Source of the DNA: Flavobacteriia bacterium
Lineage (GTDB): Bacteria; Bacteroidota; Bacteroidia; Flavobacteriales; Flavobacteriaceae
Length of the DNA: 64,000 bases
Direction of reading: 5' to 3'
Assembly (NCBI GenBank): GCA_004293045.1
Contig: RDXY01000004.1
Coordinates: 18,907-82,906 of the forward strand
How positions within the stretch are numbered: position 1 is the first letter of the stretch; each line of letters starts with the position of its first letter. Shown in pieces: positions 940 through 31,832 of this stretch. Both the position numbers and the translations under genes were made by a program. Under the pieces are notes generated by a model. The model had not been told where the DNA came from. It was given only the letters and a program-made list of their open reading frames with translations, and did not search any database.

Positions 940-1671
940 TTACTTTTTTGATGCTTTATAAATTGTAGCCACACCCATGGTTTGTGGTTCGTGCTTTACC
1001 TCTATAAACCCAATTTTTCGTAAAATATTGTTTAATGCTTCTCCAAAAGGGAAATTTTGTGCAGAAGTAGACAAATATTTGTACGCGGCTTTATCTTTAG
1101 AAAACAGTTTTCCAATGGTAGGCATAATAAAATTGGTGTACACATAATAGCCTTGTTTAAAAGGAAATTTTGTAGGCACAGATGTTTCTAAAATGATAAA
1201 AGTACCATTTGGTTTCAATACACGAAGTATTTCAGAAAGTCCTTTTTCTAAATTTTCAAAATTTCTTACACCGTATGCCACGGTTATTACATCAAAATAA
1301 TTATCCGTGTAGGGAATTTTTTCTCCATCACCTAAAACCATTTGAATTTTTGAATCTAAGTTTTTGTCTGAAATTTTTTTCTTACCCATGTCAAGCATGC
1401 CTTGTGAAATATCTAAACCGATAATTTCTGTAGCTGTGGTTTCTGCAAACAATATGGCTAAATCTCCTGTTCCGGTAGCAATATCTAAAATAGAGGTTGG
1501 TTGTTGAAGTTTTACCATTTGTAAAATCTTCTTTTTCCAGGTAGCATCAGTTCCTAACGAAATTATTTTATTTAATCCATCATAATTTTCGGAAATGGTA
1601 TCAAACATTTGAGCTACTTGCTCTTTTTTACCTGTTTCGGAATCTTGATACGGTTTTATGGTTTCGGACAT
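940..1671 (-). CDS. ubiE: Demethylmenaquinone methyltransferase
   Basis: MFDTISENYDGLNKIISLGTDATWKK, DIATGTGDLAI, YGVRNFENLEKGLSE motifs; start chosen at internal Met. Confidence 0.95.
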   Translation of the reverse strand: MSETIKPYQDSETGKKEQVAQMFDTISENYDGLNKIISLGTDATWKKKILQMVKLQQPTSILDIATGTGDLAILFAETTATEIIGLDISQGMLDMGKKKISDKNLDSKIQMVLGDGEKIPYTDNYFDVITVAYGVRNFENLEKGLSEILRVLKPNGTFIILETSVPTKFPFKQGYYVYTNFIMPTIGKLFSKDKAAYKYLSTSAQNFPFGEALNNILRKIGFIEVKHEPQTMGVATIYKASKK

Positions 1672-1821
1672 TGTTTTAATTTTGAAGTACAAAAGTACGA
1701 TTAAAAAGTTCAAGTTCAAAAATCAAACTCAATTTCAAGAACAAGAACATTTTCCATTTTCAGAAACACTGATTAAAGAAATTTTAAAAATTTGTAAAAT
1801 CTGTGTTCCAAAAAAGTGTGT

Positions 1822-2307
1822 TTATTTTTTCAAATAAGTTTGAAACGTAAAATCAAAGGCGTGTTTTTCATCTTTTGGATGCAGTTCTTCAAAAATAAGA
1901 TTCCAATGTGTCGGATTTATTTCCGGGAAAAAAGTATCCGCTTCAACAGTTGTATGAACACGAGTAAGTTCAACTTTATCAGCCCTATCGATAGCTTGTT
2001 TGTAAATTTCGCCACCGCCAATAATAAAAACTTCTTCGTTTTTTGGACAAACTTTTATAGCTTCTTCTATACTTGAAACCACTATACATCCTTCTGGTGC
2101 TATATAATCCTTTTGACGAGTAATAATCACGTGTGTTCTGTTTGGTAAAGGTTTTGGAAAACTTTCAAAGGTTTTTCTTCCCATAATGATATAATGCTCA
2201 GAAGTTAACGCTTTAAAACGTTTAAAATCATCTGGTAAATGCCAAACCAATTGGTTGTCTTTTCCCAAAGCATTATTAGTTGATGTTGCGGCGATTAGTG
2301 TGAGCAT
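1822..2307 (-). CDS. folA: Dihydrofolate reductase
   Basis: LTLIAATSTNNALGKDNQLVWHLPDDFKRFK, GRKTFESFPKPLPNR, IIGGGEIYKQAI. Confidence 0.97.
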   Translation of the reverse strand: MLTLIAATSTNNALGKDNQLVWHLPDDFKRFKALTSEHYIIMGRKTFESFPKPLPNRTHVIITRQKDYIAPEGCIVVSSIEEAIKVCPKNEEVFIIGGGEIYKQAIDRADKVELTRVHTTVEADTFFPEINPTHWNLIFEELHPKDEKHAFDFTFQTYLKK

Positions 2308-2379
2308 AGTTGTAAATTTGATGTGCTAAGGTAATGATTTTGTGAGAAATTATTGATTTAAACTTTAATAGCTATTAAC

Positions 2380-2498
2380 GTTCCGCCGCTTCTCGTCAGT
2401 TGCGAACTTCGGGACGAATTATTTTCTGTTAAAGATAAAAATTCTTGTGAAACGTAAACGTGAATTTACTACAAAATTCGCAATCTTGCCAAACGCCT
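2380..2498. repeat. attC-like palindromic spacer A (119 bp)
   Basis: Stem TTGCGAACTT 2400-2409 / AAATTCGCAA 2474-2483; 3' end CTTGCCAAACGCCT. Confidence 0.6.
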
Positions 2499-3367
2499 GT
2501 TACAAGCAGGTTTTATTTTGAAATATTTGTTGTCTGTTTGGTCGAACTTTCACTTACAACTTTAAATTCCATTTCTTCATTACTAACATGCATATTTATT
2601 GTTGAATTTAATTCATATAACAGATAAAATGTGTTTTCAATATCATAAATGATTTGTCCATTTCCTGAACCATTTGCTTTTAATGATAAGTCAGTATTTT
2701 TTGAGTTTATGGCATATATTTGAGTTATGTCAAAATATGCATTATTATTTTCGATTTTTTTGAAAGTATAAGTTATTGTATTTGTTAAATTGAAATTAAA
2801 TTTTCCAATAGGAATGCTAATTGGCATTTCTCTCACAAAACTTTCTCCTAATTTTATTTTCTGTTCTGGTAATGAAACTTGACTGATTACTTTTTGCATA
2901 GAAGATAAGAAATCTATTCTATAGAGTGAATCTAATTTCGGCGCATTGATTGAATCTAATTCGGGTGTTTTATCTATAACTACATGTCCATATATAGTTG
3001 TTCCGCTAGGTATTATTGATTTTTCGTCGCCTTCAAATTTAATTGTTAAAGGGAATTTTCCATTTTTTAAGCTACCTGTCGAATTAGTACTTTCAATGTG
3101 ATTTTTGCTCAAAGTATATTTAGGATTTTCTAAATTTTTCTCTTCAAGTCTTTTTAATAATTCATTAGGACCTAAATAAGTTACTGTGTTTTTAGAAGTT
3201 GATTCCATTGATTGTTTGTAAACCAAATTCGGTTTATAGGCAACTTTAAAGAGAATTTCTTGTGCTTGAATTTCATAACTAATAAAAAAAAGTATAGAAA
3301 GTAATAAGAGTTTTTTCATTTTATATTTTGTCTTTTTAAACCGTTCGCCTTTAAACTTGCTTGTAAC
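2499..3367 (-). mobile_element. Integron-like unit 1 with matched inverted ends (GTTACAAGCAGGTTT / AAACTTGCTTGTAAC)
   Basis: 15-bp ends at 2499-2513 and 3353-3367, 14/15 complementary. Confidence 0.65.
2513..3319 (-). CDS. Exported hypothetical protein (DUF6263-like); sole gene of integron-like unit 1
   Basis: ORF with signal peptide MKKLLLLSILFFISYEIQAQ; start moved to internal Met, 34 bp inside the unit boundary. Confidence 0.6.
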   Translation of the reverse strand: MKKLLLLSILFFISYEIQAQEILFKVAYKPNLVYKQSMESTSKNTVTYLGPNELLKRLEEKNLENPKYTLSKNHIESTNSTGSLKNGKFPLTIKFEGDEKSIIPSGTTIYGHVVIDKTPELDSINAPKLDSLYRIDFLSSMQKVISQVSLPEQKIKLGESFVREMPISIPIGKFNFNLTNTITYTFKKIENNNAYFDITQIYAINSKNTDLSLKANGSGNGQIIYDIENTFYLLYELNSTINMHVSNEEMEFKVVSESSTKQTTNISK

Positions 3368-3485
3368 GTTCCGGCGCTTGGCGTAGTGGCGGATTTTTAC
3401 CACAAATGTTTATACGAAGCACTCACTTCAAATATAGCAAAAATGTCTCTACGAAGCACGTCACCCGCCATTACGCCAAACCGCT
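3368..3485. repeat. attC-like palindromic spacer B (118 bp)
   Basis: Stem TTGGCGTAGTGGCGG 3378-3392 / CCGCCATTACGCCAA 3465-3479, 14/15. Confidence 0.75.
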
Positions 3486-3505
3486 GTTATGTGCCGTTTT
3501 TCTTG

Positions 3506-3724
3506 TCAGTGTTGTAACCAATTTTTGTAACGTTTCTGCAATAGTCCTAATAAAAGTCCCATTAAGGGAACTAAAATGAGTGTCAAAATTAAGGTCTTTA
3601 AAAGATTGTGCAAATGTCCAATGTGAGGCATAAGCAACGCGAACAGAATATTGATTAATGGATAAATACAAAGCCAAGTAAGTAAAGCCATTTTCCACTT
3701 TTCGGGTTGTCCGTTTTCTTTCAT
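3506..3724 (-). CDS. Small two-helix membrane protein (DUF2798-like)
   Basis: 72-aa hydrophobic ORF, ATGA overlap with the SDR gene. Confidence 0.6.
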   Translation of the reverse strand: MKENGQPEKWKMALLTWLCIYPLINILFALLMPHIGHLHNLLKTLILTLILVPLMGLLLGLLQKRYKNWLQH

Positions 3725-4491
3725 AGCGGTTGAACTGGCGATTTTTTGTTAATGATTTTCAAGAAAAGTTTAGGGTTAATTCTTGAACCAATTCTTAAAA
3801 CTTTTACAATGCCAATAGGTATTTCAAAAATGTCCTTGCTTATTGCGTTTAAGCTTTCAATAGCCACTTTTTCTGCTGAAATTCCTTTGTCAGTTTGTCC
3901 ACGTTTATCTCTTGCACCATTATCTAACTCAGTATCTACAATTGGTGGTAAAATTTCAAAAACCTTTACAGTTGTGGCTTCTAACTGCTTGCGTAATGAA
4001 ATTGAAAAAGAATGTAAAGCAGATTTTGTCGCTGAATAAATAGGAACAATTCCCAATGGAACAATTCCCAATCCAGATGAAACATTGACAATTGCACTTT
4101 CTTTTTGCTTCATAAAGTGAGGTGTAAAAAGTGCTGTCAAATGGAAAGTTGCTTCTAAATTGATTGAAGTTTCGCTGTCACCATTCAGATAGTCCGTTTC
4201 GCCCTTTCTAAAATCAATTTCTCGCTGAATACCTGCATTGTTCACAATTATATTAATAGCAGGAAATTGTGCTATGCAAAAATTGAATAGTTGTCTGCGT
4301 TCTTCAACATTAGAAATGTCGCACTGTTTTGTAATAAGTTGAGGAAGCAAGATTTTTGCTTCCTTTAATTTATTCTCTCTTCTGCCGCACACTATAACAG
4401 TATTGCCTTTGGCAACAAATTGTTTAGCCAATTCTAAGCCAATGCCTGTTGCTCCGCCTGTTATCAGGATTGTATTATTTGTTAGATTCAT
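3721..4491 (-). CDS. SDR family oxidoreductase (DltE-like)
   Basis: TGGATGIG, NNAG, YSATK motifs. Confidence 0.92.
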   Translation of the reverse strand: MNLTNNTILITGGATGIGLELAKQFVAKGNTVIVCGRRENKLKEAKILLPQLITKQCDISNVEERRQLFNFCIAQFPAINIIVNNAGIQREIDFRKGETDYLNGDSETSINLEATFHLTALFTPHFMKQKESAIVNVSSGLGIVPLGIVPIYSATKSALHSFSISLRKQLEATTVKVFEILPPIVDTELDNGARDKRGQTDKGISAEKVAIESLNAISKDIFEIPIGIVKVLRIGSRINPKLFLKIINKKSPVQPL

Positions 4492-4492
4492 T

Positions 4493-4891
4493 TTATTGTT
4501 TGTTTAAAGGTGCAAAAAAACCAATGTTGTTTCCGTCTGGGTCAATTACTTGTGCAAAACGTTGTCCCCAAAATGCGTCCCAAGGTTCTTTGAAAGATTG
4601 ATGTCCTGCTTCAATAAGTTTGGTGTAAGTTTCGTCAACTTCTGCTGGTGTTTTACACGCAAATTGCAAACTAATTCTATTGTCGCCTATTGGGGCTTGC
4701 CAATTTGGGTTTGTATGCAACATTGTAGTTTCGGGAATAAATCCGATACTGTAACCGTCTTCCGATGTAAACTCAACGTGGTGTTCGTTGTCCTGACCTT
4801 CGGGAATTGCAAGCCCAAGAGTACGATAGAATGAAAGGGATTTTCCTAAGTCTTTTACAGTTATGCCAACTGTGTGTAATGAAATTGCCAT
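4493..4891 (-). CDS. VOC (glyoxalase/bleomycin resistance) family protein
   Basis: Short VOC-fold ORF, FAQVIDPDGNNIGFFAP. Confidence 0.88.
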   Translation of the reverse strand: MAISLHTVGITVKDLGKSLSFYRTLGLAIPEGQDNEHHVEFTSEDGYSIGFIPETTMLHTNPNWQAPIGDNRISLQFACKTPAEVDETYTKLIEAGHQSFKEPWDAFWGQRFAQVIDPDGNNIGFFAPLNKQ

Positions 4892-4975
4892 TGTTTATAT
4901 TTTTGAATGATTTAATGGCACAAAGTTCTGTAATCCTTTTTTAGTAAGTGTTGCTCTATATCAACGTTTTGATGA

Positions 4976-5374
4976 TTACGATATTTGGTAAGATTTTTTT
5001 ATGAAGCTGTAAATTTCAGTTGTCAATTCGTCCAGAGTGGAAATTCGGATATGATTTTCATATTTACTGTTCCAAATTAAACTTTTGATTATTGGAAAAT
5101 CGTTTTGCTCTTTTTCTGAATAAAACTTGATGTCTAATTGTGTTTTCATAGGTCTCACAATTAGAAAGGTTTTGTGATGAACAAATACAATACAGTTTTT
5201 TGTCGCACTTACTACGATGTTTTCCCAATTAATAATTTCCGCTAAAAGTCTGTCAAATATAAATTCTAATTCTTCTGCTTTATTTTTGAAAAGATCTCCA
5301 ATGTTTACTTTTACACAGTTATGCCATTGGTTTGGGTTTTTTAATTCTCTTTCACATTTAGGGCAAGTCTGCAT
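4976..5374 (-). CDS. DUF5655-like protein with N-terminal CxxC...HxC
   Basis: TCPKCERELKNPNQWHNC followed by a DUF5655-like domain. Confidence 0.65.
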   Translation of the reverse strand: MQTCPKCERELKNPNQWHNCVKVNIGDLFKNKAEELEFIFDRLLAEIINWENIVVSATKNCIVFVHHKTFLIVRPMKTQLDIKFYSEKEQNDFPIIKSLIWNSKYENHIRISTLDELTTEIYSFIKKSYQIS

Positions 5375-5375
5375 A

Positions 5376-5945
5376 TTAAAGTTGTGATTTTATTCTGCTC
5401 AAAGTAGAAGGTGTCAAACCTAAATACGATGCAGCCATTTTGTTAGAAACTCTTACTAAAAAGTCGGGTTGATATTTCATAACCCATTGCACTTTTTCTA
5501 ATGCGTCAAAACCCTGAAAACCATAAATCCTTTGTTGAGCCGTAATGAAACCACGTTCTAAAATTTGTCTATAAACTTTGGCAAACTGAGGCACAGTTTC
5601 AACTAAATGAAAAAAGTTTTCTCTTGATATTTTTAGTAGTTCGGATTTTTCAATTGTCTGTACAAACTCGAAAGCTAGTGTTTGGTCTATTAAGCTTGGT
5701 AGTGCTGTGCCAAAAGCACCTTCAAAAGCAAAATACCTTGTTGTGTCTATGCCTTCATTGTTAGTTGTAAATAGTCTTAAACAACCCTTATTTACAAAAT
5801 AGTAATGTTTGCAAATCTGTCCTTGATTGAGTAGAAATTCGTTTCGTTTTGTTGTCAAGTGGGTAAAATGAGAACAAATATGGTCGAGTGTCGGCTCGTC
5901 AATAATTGTCCTATTCCTAAAATATATTTTGAGTTTTTCGTACAT
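5376..5945 (-). CDS. Crp/Fnr family transcriptional regulator (cyclic nucleotide-binding domain)
   Basis: cNMP fold plus C-terminal NKMAASYLGLTPSTLSRIK HTH. Confidence 0.9.
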   Translation of the reverse strand: MYEKLKIYFRNRTIIDEPTLDHICSHFTHLTTKRNEFLLNQGQICKHYYFVNKGCLRLFTTNNEGIDTTRYFAFEGAFGTALPSLIDQTLAFEFVQTIEKSELLKISRENFFHLVETVPQFAKVYRQILERGFITAQQRIYGFQGFDALEKVQWVMKYQPDFLVRVSNKMAASYLGLTPSTLSRIKSQL

Positions 5946-5985
5946 CTGTCTGTTTGTGTGGTGTCGCTTTAAAATGGCACATAAC

Positions 5986-6103
5986 GGTTTGCAGCTTGCA
6001 GAAGTGGCGGATTATTTGCACCAAAGTTACTAAATATTACTGAACTTTCAACAAGCACAAAACTTTCTGAAATGCACTGAACCCGCCATTTTTGCAAACT
6101 GCT
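5986..6103. repeat. attC-like palindromic spacer C (118 bp)
   Basis: Stem TTGCAGAAGTGGCGG 5996-6010 / CCGCCATTTTTGCAA 6083-6097, 13/15. Confidence 0.75.
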
Positions 6104-7501
6104 GTTGTATGAAGCCTTAAGTTAAAAAAATTAAACTTTATTGTTTAAGTAATTTATAATTAAATACATTATTTTCTGTTTCAACTTTAATTATATACAT
6201 ACCTTTTGGTAATGAGTTAATATTTATTATTGAATTATTACCAGTTATCTTTAATACTTGTTTGCCTGATATATCATGCATATAAATATTTCTTGTATTT
6301 GAATTTTTTAGGTTTTTTAAATAAAAGAAATCACTAGCAGGGTTTGGAAATATTTTAAAATCTTCAGTTGAATAATAATCCAAACCTAAATTTGTACAAC
6401 TGACATTAATTGGAAAAAAGCTATCTAAATTTGATCCAATACCCAATTGACCTAAATTATTTTGACCAAAAGTACTTAGTTCAAAATCTGAGTTTAAAAC
6501 AGAAGAAAATTTGAAACCATTACTTAACATTGTCCAATTAGTTCCATTTCCTACTTGTGATGGATTACTAACATTCGTGTTGTTTCCATTACCTAATTGT
6601 CCATTAGAATTATTTCCCCAAGACCAGAGTGTTCCATTATTTTTTAAAGCTAAATTAAAGTTAAAGTAAGAACTTATTTTTGACCAATCTGAAGAAGCCC
6701 CATTTTGTGTCGGAATTGAATTAAAGTTTGCACCCCAAGACCAAAGTGTTCCATTATTTTTTATAGCCATAGTATACCAGAAGCCTGTTGAAATTTCTTT
6801 CCAATCTGTTGAAGTGCCAATTTGAGTAGGAGCGAAAATTTGCGAGAATAAAATTCCATTTCCTAATTCACCATAATTACTTTGCCCCCAAGACCATAAT
6901 GTGTTATTATTTTTTAATGCTATAGTCGATAGTCCTCCAAAGGATATGGATTTCCAATCCATATCAGTTCCTATTTGTGTAGGAACTAATATATCAGATG
7001 TGTTAGATGGTTGACCCAATTGATTATTTCCATCGTTTAAACCCCAACCCCAAAGAGTAAAGTTATTTTTTATTGCAGCTGAAACATATATTCCACCAAA
7101 AACATCTTTCCAGTCATTTTCATTTCCAATTTGAGTAGGTGTATTTAAATTAATAATTGAATTATTTCCGATTTGTCCATTAGAATTATTTCCCCAAGCC
7201 CAGAGTGTTCCATCGTTTTTTATACCAATTGAATGACCCGCTCCAGCTGCAATATCTCTCCAATTATTAGAATTTCCTATCTGAATTGGTATATTACTAT
7301 CTATATTATTTCCATTACCTAATTGTCCGAATTGATTCATTCCCCAAGCCCAAAGTGTTCCATCAGTTCTTATAGCTATTGTATGATATTGACCATTGCT
7401 TACTTGTTTCCAACATTGGGAATATAATTCGTTATTTATTAACATTAAGACTAATAATAGTAGTTTTTTCATAATTGTAGTTTTTAAAGGTTTTATACAA
7501 C
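6104..7501 (-). mobile_element. Integron-like unit 3 with matched inverted ends (GTTGTATGAAGCCTT / AAGGTTTTATACAAC)
   Basis: 15-bp ends at 6104-6118 and 7487-7501, 13/15 complementary. Confidence 0.6.
6138..7472 (-). CDS. Secreted RCC1-repeat protein with type IX secretion C-terminal sorting domain
   Basis: Repeated NNGTLWSWGxNxxGQLGNG units; C-terminal FKIFPNPASDFFYLKN...GMYIIKVE...KLLKQ. Confidence 0.9.
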   Translation of the reverse strand: MKKLLLLVLMLINNELYSQCWKQVSNGQYHTIAIRTDGTLWAWGMNQFGQLGNGNNIDSNIPIQIGNSNNWRDIAAGAGHSIGIKNDGTLWAWGNNSNGQIGNNSIINLNTPTQIGNENDWKDVFGGIYVSAAIKNNFTLWGWGLNDGNNQLGQPSNTSDILVPTQIGTDMDWKSISFGGLSTIALKNNNTLWSWGQSNYGELGNGILFSQIFAPTQIGTSTDWKEISTGFWYTMAIKNNGTLWSWGANFNSIPTQNGASSDWSKISSYFNFNLALKNNGTLWSWGNNSNGQLGNGNNTNVSNPSQVGNGTNWTMLSNGFKFSSVLNSDFELSTFGQNNLGQLGIGSNLDSFFPINVSCTNLGLDYYSTEDFKIFPNPASDFFYLKNLKNSNTRNIYMHDISGKQVLKITGNNSIININSLPKGMYIIKVETENNVFNYKLLKQ

Positions 7502-7594
7502 TTGTTTATATACTCAGTTTTTTGTTATTTAGTTGAGCATATCCACCTATTTTATAATAGCTTTGCTCAATTATTTTGTGTTTTATATTTTTTT

Positions 7595-8437: not shown

Positions 8438-8884
8438 TTGGGTATAGGGTTAAGGGTTTTTAGTATTCGGTTTATTTCTTAAATAAGATAAAAAAGAGGC
8501 TATTCTTTTTTCAAGTATTTGAATGGATTCAATTTGTTTTGAAACTATATTTTCATCTAAATAATTTATATCTGAACACAACATGAATTGGGTTTCTAAT
8601 TCAAAACAAGAACCTAAGCTAATTTCTAAAAATCTACATAAATCTTTATCTGAACTTTTAGCACATCCTTCAGCTATATTAGATGGAATAGATATTACAG
8701 AACGTTTTATTTGTGAAGTCAATCCAAACTTTTCATCGTCTGGCATTTGCTTCATAATCATATAAGTAGCAACCACAAGCAATCTACTCTCTTTCCAAAT
8801 ATCTAATTCTCTAAAATTTCTCATTCTGAAATAAAAAATTATCTTTTAAATCCTTTTACCAAAAACCCTTAACCTTTTACCCAA
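8438..8884 (-). mobile_element. Four-helix-bundle gene flanked by 26-bp inverted repeats
   Basis: TTGGGTATAGGGTTAAGGGTTTTTAG 8438-8463 vs reverse complement of 8859-8884, 23/26. Confidence 0.7.
8450..8824 (-). CDS. Four-helix bundle protein (23S rRNA intervening-sequence protein family)
   Basis: FRELDIWKESRLLV...LTSQIKRSVISIPSNIAEG...FLEISLGSCFELETQ. Confidence 0.92.
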   Translation of the reverse strand: MRNFRELDIWKESRLLVVATYMIMKQMPDDEKFGLTSQIKRSVISIPSNIAEGCAKSSDKDLCRFLEISLGSCFELETQFMLCSDINYLDENIVSKQIESIQILEKRIASFLSYLRNKPNTKNP

Positions 8885-29096: not shown

Positions 29097-31832
29097 ATGA
29101 AAAAAATAATTTTAGTATTAAGCTTATTTCTTGTTGGGATAAGTTACTCGCAATCAGTAAAGGTTTCAGGAATTCTTAAAGATAGCGACAATTTGGTTAT
29201 AGAAACAGCCAATGTAATGGCTATTAACCAAGTCACAAAAGCCATGGATGCCTATAACATTACCAGTGAAAAAGGGGAATTTTCATTAAACTTAAAACCC
29301 AATACCGAATATATTATCAAAGCTGGTTACATTGGGTATGCCCCTTTTGAACAAAAAATTACTACTACAAAAGAGAATCAAACTTTTAATATTGTTTTAT
29401 CAAGTTCTAACACCATTGAAACCGTTGAAATTGTTCGAGAAATGCCTGTTAGAATAAGTGGTGATACCATTATTTACAATTCCGATTCGTTTACCAACGG
29501 AACCGAAAAAAAATTAGAAGATGTATTAAAAAAACTACCCGGAGTGTCTGTTAATAAAGATGGTGAGATTTCCGTAGAAGGTAAAACAGCACAAAAATTA
29601 ATGGTTAATGGAAAAGATTTTTTTGATGGTGATACCAAATTAGGGGTTAAAAACATTCCTGCAGATGCCATTGACAAAGTACAAGTTTTAAGAAATTATA
29701 ATGAAGTTTCTAATCTAAAAGGATTGGAAAACAATGAAGACAACATTGCTATCAATATTAAACTAAAACAGGGTAAAACCAACTTTTGGTTTGGTGATGT
29801 ACTTGCCGGAGAAGGAATTATTGACTCTAAAAACAGAGGGATTGTAAACCCAAAACTGTTTTATTATAGTCCAAAATACAGTGTCAATTTAATTGGAAAC
29901 TTAAATAATATTGGCGAGTTGCCGCTTACCACGCAAGACTATTTTAAATTTACTGGAGGATTTAAAAATATGATGCGTAAAGGAGGTTCTAGTTTTAATG
30001 TTTCTTCAAACGATTTGGGAATTATGGGAATGAGAAACAATCGAGCTAAAAATATTGATACAAAATTTGGCGCGGCGAACTTCTCCTATAATCCATCAAA
30101 AGTGTGGACAATTAGTGGATTTGGTATTTATTCGTACAACAAAACCGATTTACAAACCGATAATATTTATAATCGTGTTGATAAATTGCCAAATGGATCT
30201 ACCGTAAATATTTCGGAAACCCGTCAAGATATTTCTAAACAAAAAACCAATTTAGGTTTATTTAAATTAAGTAGTAGTTATGTGCCTTCAGCTAAAATGC
30301 ACCTGGATTATGATGCGTTGCTAAAAACATCCGATCAATTGGAAAATCAAAATGTGATATCCAATTTGCAAGGAACTATTTATACACAAAAAAACCAGAA
30401 ACCGTTATCTGTTAGTCAAAATTTAAACTATTATTATACACTAAATGATAAAAATGTATTTGCTTTTGAAATGCAAAATTTATTTCAACAAGAAGATCCG
30501 TTTTACAATGCAAATTTGCAAATAATACCTTTTAGAGATTTTATTACTGGCGAATCTATAATACCAGGCTATAACAACACACAAACAAGAAACGACATCA
30601 ATCAAAACCGATTTGTAAAAACAAATAAAACCGATGCAAAATTTGATTATTATTACATGGTTACACCAAAAAATAATATTAATATTACTATTGGAAACAC
30701 CTATTCGTATCAAAATTTCAACTCAAACATATTTCAAATTCTAGATAATGGGTCGCAAAATAATTTAACGGATAGCCGCAATACCAATCAAGTAAATTAT
30801 GTCTTTAACGATGCTTTTATTGGATTACATTACAAAATGTTAATTGGAAAATTCACTTTGAATCCAGGAGTTACTTTACATCAATTTAACACTAGTGACA
30901 CCCAATTGAACAGCACCAATAAAATGAGTTTCAATAGAGTTTTACCTGATTTTTATGCCTTATGGCAAATGAAAAAATCACAATCTTTAACTTATAATTT
31001 CTCATTAACCAATAATTTTACTGATGTGGTTAAATTAGCTCAAGGGTATGTATTTTCTAACTATAACAGTTTATATAGTGGGAATAGATTCTTAGAAAAT
31101 TCTATTTCACAAGTGCACTCCTTACGTTTCTTTAAATTTAGCATGTTTAATATGGAAAATATTTTTGCTAATGTTACGTATACCAAACAAACAGATATTA
31201 TTACCAACCGTGCTTTGTTAACTGGTGTAAATCAGGTTTCAAGTTCTGTAAATATTAATTCGAATTTTCCAAATGAATCGCTTTCAGGGAATATTAATTA
31301 CGGAAGATCTTTTGCAAGATATTTTAAGGCTAATGGTGGAGCGAGAATTGGTTGGAATAAAAACAATAACATTCGTGTGAATCCAGATAATTCAGAATAC
31401 ATTCAAAATACAAAATCGGTTACACAAAACTATCAAATTGGTTTTTCAACTAATTTTAAAAAAATTCCAAACATTGAATTGGCCTATGATTATACGGTGA
31501 ACGATTTTCAAAATCAAGTGAATTATGTAGATAATCCTTCCGTAACACTTGAGTATTTCTTTTTAGACGCCTTTTCTTTTACATCAGAATATAGTTTTTA
31601 TCACAATAGAAATAAAGCAAAGACTATTGATACCGAATATGATTTTTTAACCGCCTCATTATCATATCAGAAAAAGGATAGTAAATTTGAATACAAAATT
31701 AGCGCCACCAACTTATTAAATACAACAGCACTAAACGACAATAGTTTTAATGCCTTAGGTGGATCTACAAACTTCTCAAGTTTTTATGTACAACCCCGTT
31801 TTGTAGTGTTTAGTTTGAAATATGTATTGTAA
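29097..31832 (+). CDS. TonB-dependent-receptor-like outer membrane beta-barrel protein with carboxypeptidase-like domain
   Basis: KVSGILKDSDNLVIETANVMA; plug-like LEDVLKKLPGVSVNKDGEISVEGKTAQKLMVNGKDFFDGD. Confidence 0.88.
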   Translation: MKKIILVLSLFLVGISYSQSVKVSGILKDSDNLVIETANVMAINQVTKAMDAYNITSEKGEFSLNLKPNTEYIIKAGYIGYAPFEQKITTTKENQTFNIVLSSSNTIETVEIVREMPVRISGDTIIYNSDSFTNGTEKKLEDVLKKLPGVSVNKDGEISVEGKTAQKLMVNGKDFFDGDTKLGVKNIPADAIDKVQVLRNYNEVSNLKGLENNEDNIAINIKLKQGKTNFWFGDVLAGEGIIDSKNRGIVNPKLFYYSPKYSVNLIGNLNNIGELPLTTQDYFKFTGGFKNMMRKGGSSFNVSSNDLGIMGMRNNRAKNIDTKFGAANFSYNPSKVWTISGFGIYSYNKTDLQTDNIYNRVDKLPNGSTVNISETRQDISKQKTNLGLFKLSSSYVPSAKMHLDYDALLKTSDQLENQNVISNLQGTIYTQKNQKPLSVSQNLNYYYTLNDKNVFAFEMQNLFQQEDPFYNANLQIIPFRDFITGESIIPGYNNTQTRNDINQNRFVKTNKTDAKFDYYYMVTPKNNINITIGNTYSYQNFNSNIFQILDNGSQNNLTDSRNTNQVNYVFNDAFIGLHYKMLIGKFTLNPGVTLHQFNTSDTQLNSTNKMSFNRVLPDFYALWQMKKSQSLTYNFSLTNNFTDVVKLAQGYVFSNYNSLYSGNRFLENSISQVHSLRFFKFSMFNMENIFANVTYTKQTDIITNRALLTGVNQVSSSVNINSNFPNESLSGNINYGRSFARYFKANGGARIGWNKNNNIRVNPDNSEYIQNTKSVTQNYQIGFSTNFKKIPNIELAYDYTVNDFQNQVNYVDNPSVTLEYFFLDAFSFTSEYSFYHNRNKAKTIDTEYDFLTASLSYQKKDSKFEYKISATNLLNTTALNDNSFNALGGSTNFSSFYVQPRFVVFSLKYVL

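Follow-up and report, generated by a model that had tools for sequence, protein, structure and literature searches.

The window analysed here, a stretch of 64,000 nucleotides from a Flavobacteriia bacterium, very probably contains a small cassette array belonging to an integron-like gene-capture system of Bacteroidota. The source genome (G000) is a metagenome-assembled genome (MAG) that is 75.6% complete. Three units occupy positions 2499-7501 on the minus strand, each with its own 15-bp ends, and the order along that strand is thyA, attI-like site, cassette 3, hairpin C, cassette 2, hairpin B, cassette 1, hairpin A and folA. Each cassette consists of GTT followed by an arm of its own (about 12 bp), one or more genes, the same arm inverted plus AAC, and a 118-bp hairpin. 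In the mechanism that we propose, the two arms would join in the circle upon excision and form, with the hairpin, a single long folded attC-like site, mismatched or bulged at arm position 11. A recombinase encoded on contig C4 would then join the folded bottom strand at GTT to an attI-like site (TATAWACAAG|TT) or to another hairpin, and the window array, located at a second attI-like copy after thyA, would be served in trans. At the level of sequence, the anatomy of the units, their boundaries, the linkage between recombinase, attI-like site and array, the duplication of cassettes and the stability bias toward the bottom strand can all be demonstrated; the linked recombinase would be the catalyst and single-stranded bottom strands its substrate.

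Cassette boundaries and folded sites

For 88 distinct units drawn from many genomes, we compared each start with the reverse-complemented end of the same unit. The two are 92-100% identical at arm positions 1-9, 61% at position 10, 1% at position 11 and 67-83% at positions 12-15, and past position 15 identity drops to 8-24%. Position 11 is A at 87/88 starts and G or C at nearly all ends, giving a near-universal mismatch or, alternatively, a one-base bulge (CA vs TCG), which we read as a mark of the strand with a role comparable to that of the extrahelical bases of attC (PMC2727003). Over positions 4-10, six or seven of the seven letters match within the unit in 80/88 units, compared to 3.4% for random start/end pairs, and none of 10000 permutations reached the observed mean. 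Arms of neighbouring units, facing each other across a hairpin, do not match; identity is confined to the unit. The initial annotation of this DNA had proposed a cassette logic in which ends match within units and not between them, and both these counts and the boundaries of the repeated cassettes described below bear it out. It had also remarked that the flanks of AAC and GTT are unlike canonical R boxes: the two triplets are retained, and GTTRRRY occurs in only 5/88 arms. A rule based on arms alone yielded 23 units in six further loci (L113, L118, L121, L122, L127 and L131) and gave zero hits in shuffles or on the opposite strand, with gaps between units of mostly 111-119 bp where they were visible.

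The clearest view of the moving unit comes from a single 45-kb array (G045), in which five cassette families are repeated two or three times as units that are 99.8-100% identical. The 3' hairpins of these repeated cassettes are 99-100% identical, while their 5' hairpins share only the background level of 61-73%. What moves is therefore, as in integrons, a gene together with its own 3' hairpin, and the borders of this unit lie at GTT. A search of 300 Flavobacteriaceae genomes for a repeated G045 cassette gave no match. The longest open reading frame (ORF) lies on the array strand in 57/63 units, with a median start 41 nt past GTT. Cargo is diverse and includes, among others, GNAT, MFS, beta-lactamase fold, SMODS, Mrr and RES proteins, as well as one protein that matches the integron-associated family Cass2.

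Hairpins were described with a covariance model, R1, built from 17 seed sequences (hairpins A, B and C of the window among them) with 23 pairs, and whose E-values are rough. Along the minus strand of the window R1 gives exactly three matches, A, B and C, while on the opposite strand B and C reappear as weaker mirror matches. In the stem, 94.6% of cells are paired, a value that 0/500 shuffles attained; in 11 of the 20 outer-stem pairs both partners have changed, and the pairing collapses once the register is shifted by 1-3 columns. When circle sites were reconstituted and folded with DNA parameters, the bottom strand was the more stable in 77/85, with mean folding energies of -30.5 vs -26.2 kcal/mol, a bias expected if the bottom strand is the substrate, as for attC. 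For two window cassettes that were folded, both strands are roughly equal in stability. The earlier suggestion of a non-canonical attC-like hairpin is thus supported by covariation and by strand bias.

Hairpins were found in 128/297 Bacteroidota genomes (43%) and in 75/140 genera, scoring at most 11 candidates per genome, and R1 had no match at E<=0.01 in non-Bacteroidota loci. One cultured carrier is Flavobacterium aciduliphilum DSM 25663 (L112). They are present on Chryseobacterium plasmids, on IMG/VR viral contigs (L268-L272) and on a 6.5-kb Empedobacter plasmid (L267); viral contigs and the small plasmid could be vehicles for single cassettes.

The recombinase and the attI-like site

The recombinase, which the initial annotation had placed elsewhere, is a tyrosine recombinase of 347 aa on contig C4 of the source genome (L043:8735-9778), and it heads arrays in relatives. 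There, matches to TIGR02249 that are split near profile positions 182-237 adjoin hairpins, and we inspected 20 regions with such split matches for arrays. In most of them the arrays lie on one strand and start directly downstream of the recombinase; among Flavobacteriales loci with hairpins, it stands at the array head and on the same strand in 13/14. Recombinase-headed arrays make up most hairpin-bearing loci of named genomes (Algoriphagus, Cyclobacterium, Winogradskyella, Alkalitalea and others) and also occur on Chryseobacterium plasmids. TIGR02249 itself is too loose a marker, with matches in all 14 control genomes, and for co-occurrence we relied on strong matches to an alignment of the recombinase, chiefly matches that include the N-terminal domain described below. 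Genomes with the N-terminal domain recombinase carry hairpins in 49/55 cases, against 79/242 of the others (Fisher p ~6e-15).

The TIGR02249 score of the recombinase is 207.9, below the cut-off of 265, and no protein in 97 relatives scored above it. The best curated family is XerA-type NF040815 (228.8 bits, above its cut-off of 220), a name that carries no functional meaning for this recombinase, and the best PDB matches are 4a8e and 5hxy. The IntI-specific insert, an additional domain near patch III, is absent: the region holds 31-36 residues, compared to 72-74 in a set comprising IntI1, IntI4 (2a3v), three phage IntIs and one Calditrichia IntI. In a tree obtained with a quick method, IntI is monophyletic (100 in the Shimodaira-Hasegawa-like approximate likelihood ratio test, SH-aLRT) and the array recombinases form a separate Bacteroidota clade (83). 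By insert and by clade, the array recombinase is not an IntI.

An extra N-terminal domain of about 60 residues is predicted to fold as beta-beta-alpha-beta-beta-alpha. It has no convincing sequence match in Pfam or PDB; Foldseek places the HARP domain of SMARCAL1 second and third (E 0.9, probability 0.28), so that a resemblance of the predicted fold to HARP is a weak lead. Long versions of the recombinase (588-718 aa) exist in L047, L052, L139, L142 and L147, and the two that we aligned seem, by eye, to hold three tandem copies of the domain. What appears to be the same domain is also seen in L131, a Spirochaetota MAG, and in L128, L135 and L148; these MAG labels name other phyla, possibly through mis-binning. 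In L131 the first cassette begins 97 bp past the recombinase stop.

About 90-120 bp past the recombinase stop, most loci share a conserved TATAWACAAG|TT at which the first cassette begins. In the source genome the exact 17-mer GAGTATATAAACAAGTT occurs twice only, beside the recombinase on C4 and at 7499-7515 of the window. The two attI-like sites are identical in 84/107 alignment columns, and fully so in the part that leads to the crossover. The window array is a satellite at this second attI-like copy after thyA, presumably served in trans. In the window the site spans 7499..7594 on the minus strand; it begins immediately past the stop codon of thyA and runs as far as the crossover GTT (core ACTGAGTATATAAACAAG|TT). 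The interval first annotated ended at 7501, and the site, at and just past that edge, had gone unnoticed. Many loci also show a TAnnTTTG-like motif just past the recombinase stop (seen by eye, without a control), which is not obvious in the source genome; promoter-like and preceding attI, it would drive the first cassettes.

Comparison of the thyA-folA interval in relatives had been proposed as a check, and its content does differ between related genomes. At least 17 Flavobacterium-group relatives have folA behind thyA, at a distance of 44-1000 bp. The closest of them (G032) has a decayed attI-like sequence after thyA, with four other genes filling the interval and no R1 hairpins, showing that what the interval holds changes between relatives.

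The window array and other elements at the crossover

Following the array from its attI-like head, the first unit is cassette 3 (6104..7501, minus strand like all features of the array; ends GTTGTATAAAACCTT / GTTGTATGAAGCCTT), which encodes a 444-aa RCC1-repeat protein with a Por secretion C-terminal tail (6138..7472; Pfam RCC1 4.7e-54, Por_Secre_tail 1.6e-12). Hairpin C (AAC...GTT, 5983..6106; R1 116.4 bits, a seed member of the model) encloses a spacer of 118 bp between the triplets (5986-6103). Cassette 2 (3486..5985; ends GTTATGTGCCATTTT / GTTATGTGCCGTTTT) holds five genes, for a Crp/Fnr-type cyclic nucleotide (cNMP)-binding regulator of 189 aa (5376..5945; PF00027 5e-10), a DUF5655 protein (4976..5374; PF18899 8.1e-15), a VOC/glyoxalase protein (4493..4891; PF00903 3e-15), a short-chain dehydrogenase (3721..4491; PF00106 6.7e-45) and a small protein of 72 aa with no Pfam match (3506..3724). 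Next come hairpin B (AAC...GTT, 3365..3488; 109.6 bits, seed member; 118-bp spacer at 3368-3485) and cassette 1 (2499..3367; ends GTTACAAGCAAGTTT / GTTACAAGCAGGTTT), whose 268-aa product has a signal-peptide-like start and no Pfam match (2513..3319). Hairpin A (2377..2501; 82.8 bits, seed member; 119-bp spacer at 2380-2498) ends the array, with its GTT at 2377-2379 bordering the folA side, and belongs to the same sub-family as the hairpins of contig C4 (G000:C4, locus L002). Unit-specific ends, spacers of 119, 118 and 118 bp and genes all on the minus strand are as initially described. Gene starts 26-40 bp inside the unit hold for two of the units (40 and 29 bp) and not for cassette 1, where the distance is most likely 48 bp (ATG at 3319).

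Upstream of thyA the window encodes a PF05635 protein of the 23S rRNA-intervening-sequence type (8450-8824). The source genome has a second small array (L244, G000:C17), with two hairpins after a tsaE-like gene and a decayed attI-like stretch behind this housekeeping gene.

Other elements meet the arrays at the crossover. In a Chryseobacterium plasmid and in G036, group II introns (RF02001, RF00029) have their start at the edge of a hairpin, which recalls the integron introns that target attC; those at L183:24722-26576 and ~31354-31525, and at L262 ~3360-3827, lie on the opposite strand at the hairpin border. A palindromic element of ~170-200 bp, devoid of genes, sits at the attI or hairpin crossover in L183 (19150-19340, 23626-23800 and from 26693 on) and directly after the recombinase in L054, and reads ATGTGAAAAATCGCCC... 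in the latter and GGGAAAAATCGCCC... in L183; letters specific to the given insertion seem to recur at its ends and in parts of its interior. In G036 and G047, three hairpins (L010, L016, which is the same as L262, and L022) enter the same sequence, GTCAGGCTGTGAAAAAACCTC, at the crossover, which in L262 is flanked by a transposase-like ORF (1608-3155). These sites may be the target of an insertion sequence.

Competing explanations and relation to known systems

A remnant of an ordinary integron of the canonical IntI family, i.e. a cluster of attC sites lacking an integron integrase (CALIN) in which the attC sites happen to be odd, would share the cassette logic, the AAC...GTT borders, the asymmetric spacers and the bottom-strand bias, and IntegronFinder 2.0 does list one complete integron in Bacteroidetes proper, in Salinibacter (PMC9024848). 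We nonetheless consider this very improbable: the linked recombinase lacks the IntI insert and falls in another clade, its TIGR02249 score (207.9 vs 265) is below a cut-off that nothing in the 97 relatives exceeds, GTTRRRY is rare among the arms (5/88), and neither of two class 1 integron plasmids, R388 and R751, gives an R1 match at E<=10. Barely credible is an origin as dispersed palindromes between genes (like repetitive extragenic palindromes or bacterial interspersed mosaic elements, REP/BIME, RNA terminators or non-coding RNAs) whose matching ends are mere stem extensions. Strong hairpins do follow genes, and lone hairpins away from arrays occur in the source genome, yet ends match within the gene unit and not across the hairpin, which refutes this origin for the arrays; the hairpins are moreover set array-wise on a single strand adjoining the recombinase, and repeated cassettes bring their own 3' hairpin. 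The hairpins matched no Rfam family, arms do not match across hairpins, and the terminator, REP and known-RNA readings were rejected. It is also quite improbable that homologous recombination or gene conversion between hairpins assembled the cassettes while the recombinase was a bystander, for example an extra Xer-like dimer resolvase. Related hairpins could provide homology, and related recombinases without the N-terminal domain occur in 25 genomes with hairpins and in 16 without. Junctions, however, fall exactly at GTT despite 5' hairpins that are only 61-73% identical, most loci have an attI-like site after the gene of the recombinase, and the same genomes have separate Xer genes that branch apart from the array recombinases.

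Some observations weigh against an integron-like cassette system itself. Circles, excision and gain or loss between strains were not directly observed, with one genome per species, and the window's cassette 2 is close to strain-specific, hence it is from other arrays that we infer mobility for the cassettes of the window. In L059 and L120 the array is divergent from the recombinase, the co-occurrence statistic (49/55 vs 79/242) ignores phylogeny, and 18 genomes have at least three hairpins without a strong recombinase match. A bolder version of the cassette-system reading is that of a second, independently evolved integron, with a XerA-related recombinase outside the IntI clade, folded single-stranded sites, an N-terminal domain (possibly related to HARP, a junction-binding domain) replacing the IntI insert, a place as a main gene-exchange route in Bacteroidota and satellite attI sites served in trans; we find it conceivable and lean slightly against it. 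If active, the system would give Bacteroidota of soils, waters and guts a widespread cassette system of their own, one that IntI-based searches are expected to miss. We found no prior description of it in the open-access papers that were searched.

Integrons are the textbook gene-capture platform, with scarcely any seen so far in Bacteroidetes (PMC9024848), and those of class 1 and the Vibrio superintegron resemble the Bacteroidota arrays in their cassette boundaries, AAC...GTT borders, attI at the head, genes on one strand, folded-hairpin site with a more stable bottom strand, and diverse cargo. As in canonical integrons, the cassette start complements its own R'' end, the attC-like site keeps its structure (a stem, an unpaired spacer and a difference between the strands), and an attI-like site lies beside the recombinase. 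In contrast, the IntI insert, the IntI clade and the R boxes RYYYAAC / GTTRRRY are all missing, the recombinase carries an additional domain at its N terminus, and the arms run to about 15 bp, with position 11 as a fixed mismatch, where integron attC sites have 7-nt R boxes with pairing that extends to 9-11 nt (PMC2727003). Treponema chromosomal integrons are described with a true intI, unlike the array recombinase, which is not IntI by the insert test. XerA, listed in one survey among chromosome dimer resolvases (PMC8138268), differs in that the array recombinase has the extra N-terminal domain and linked cassette arrays. The survey also describes an integron-like subgroup of simple tyrosine recombinases in which the IntI insertion is said to be incompletely conserved (Smyshlyaev et al. 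2021, PMC8138268). This subgroup may include the array recombinases; compared by description only, it comes without cassette arrays or sites of this type in the accessible text (PMC8138268). Since the IntI-specific domain, reported there as essential for integron function (PMC8138268), is absent here, the system offers a direct test of what recombining folded attC-like DNA requires. As judged from sequence, it works like an integron, but the IntI test places it outside that class.

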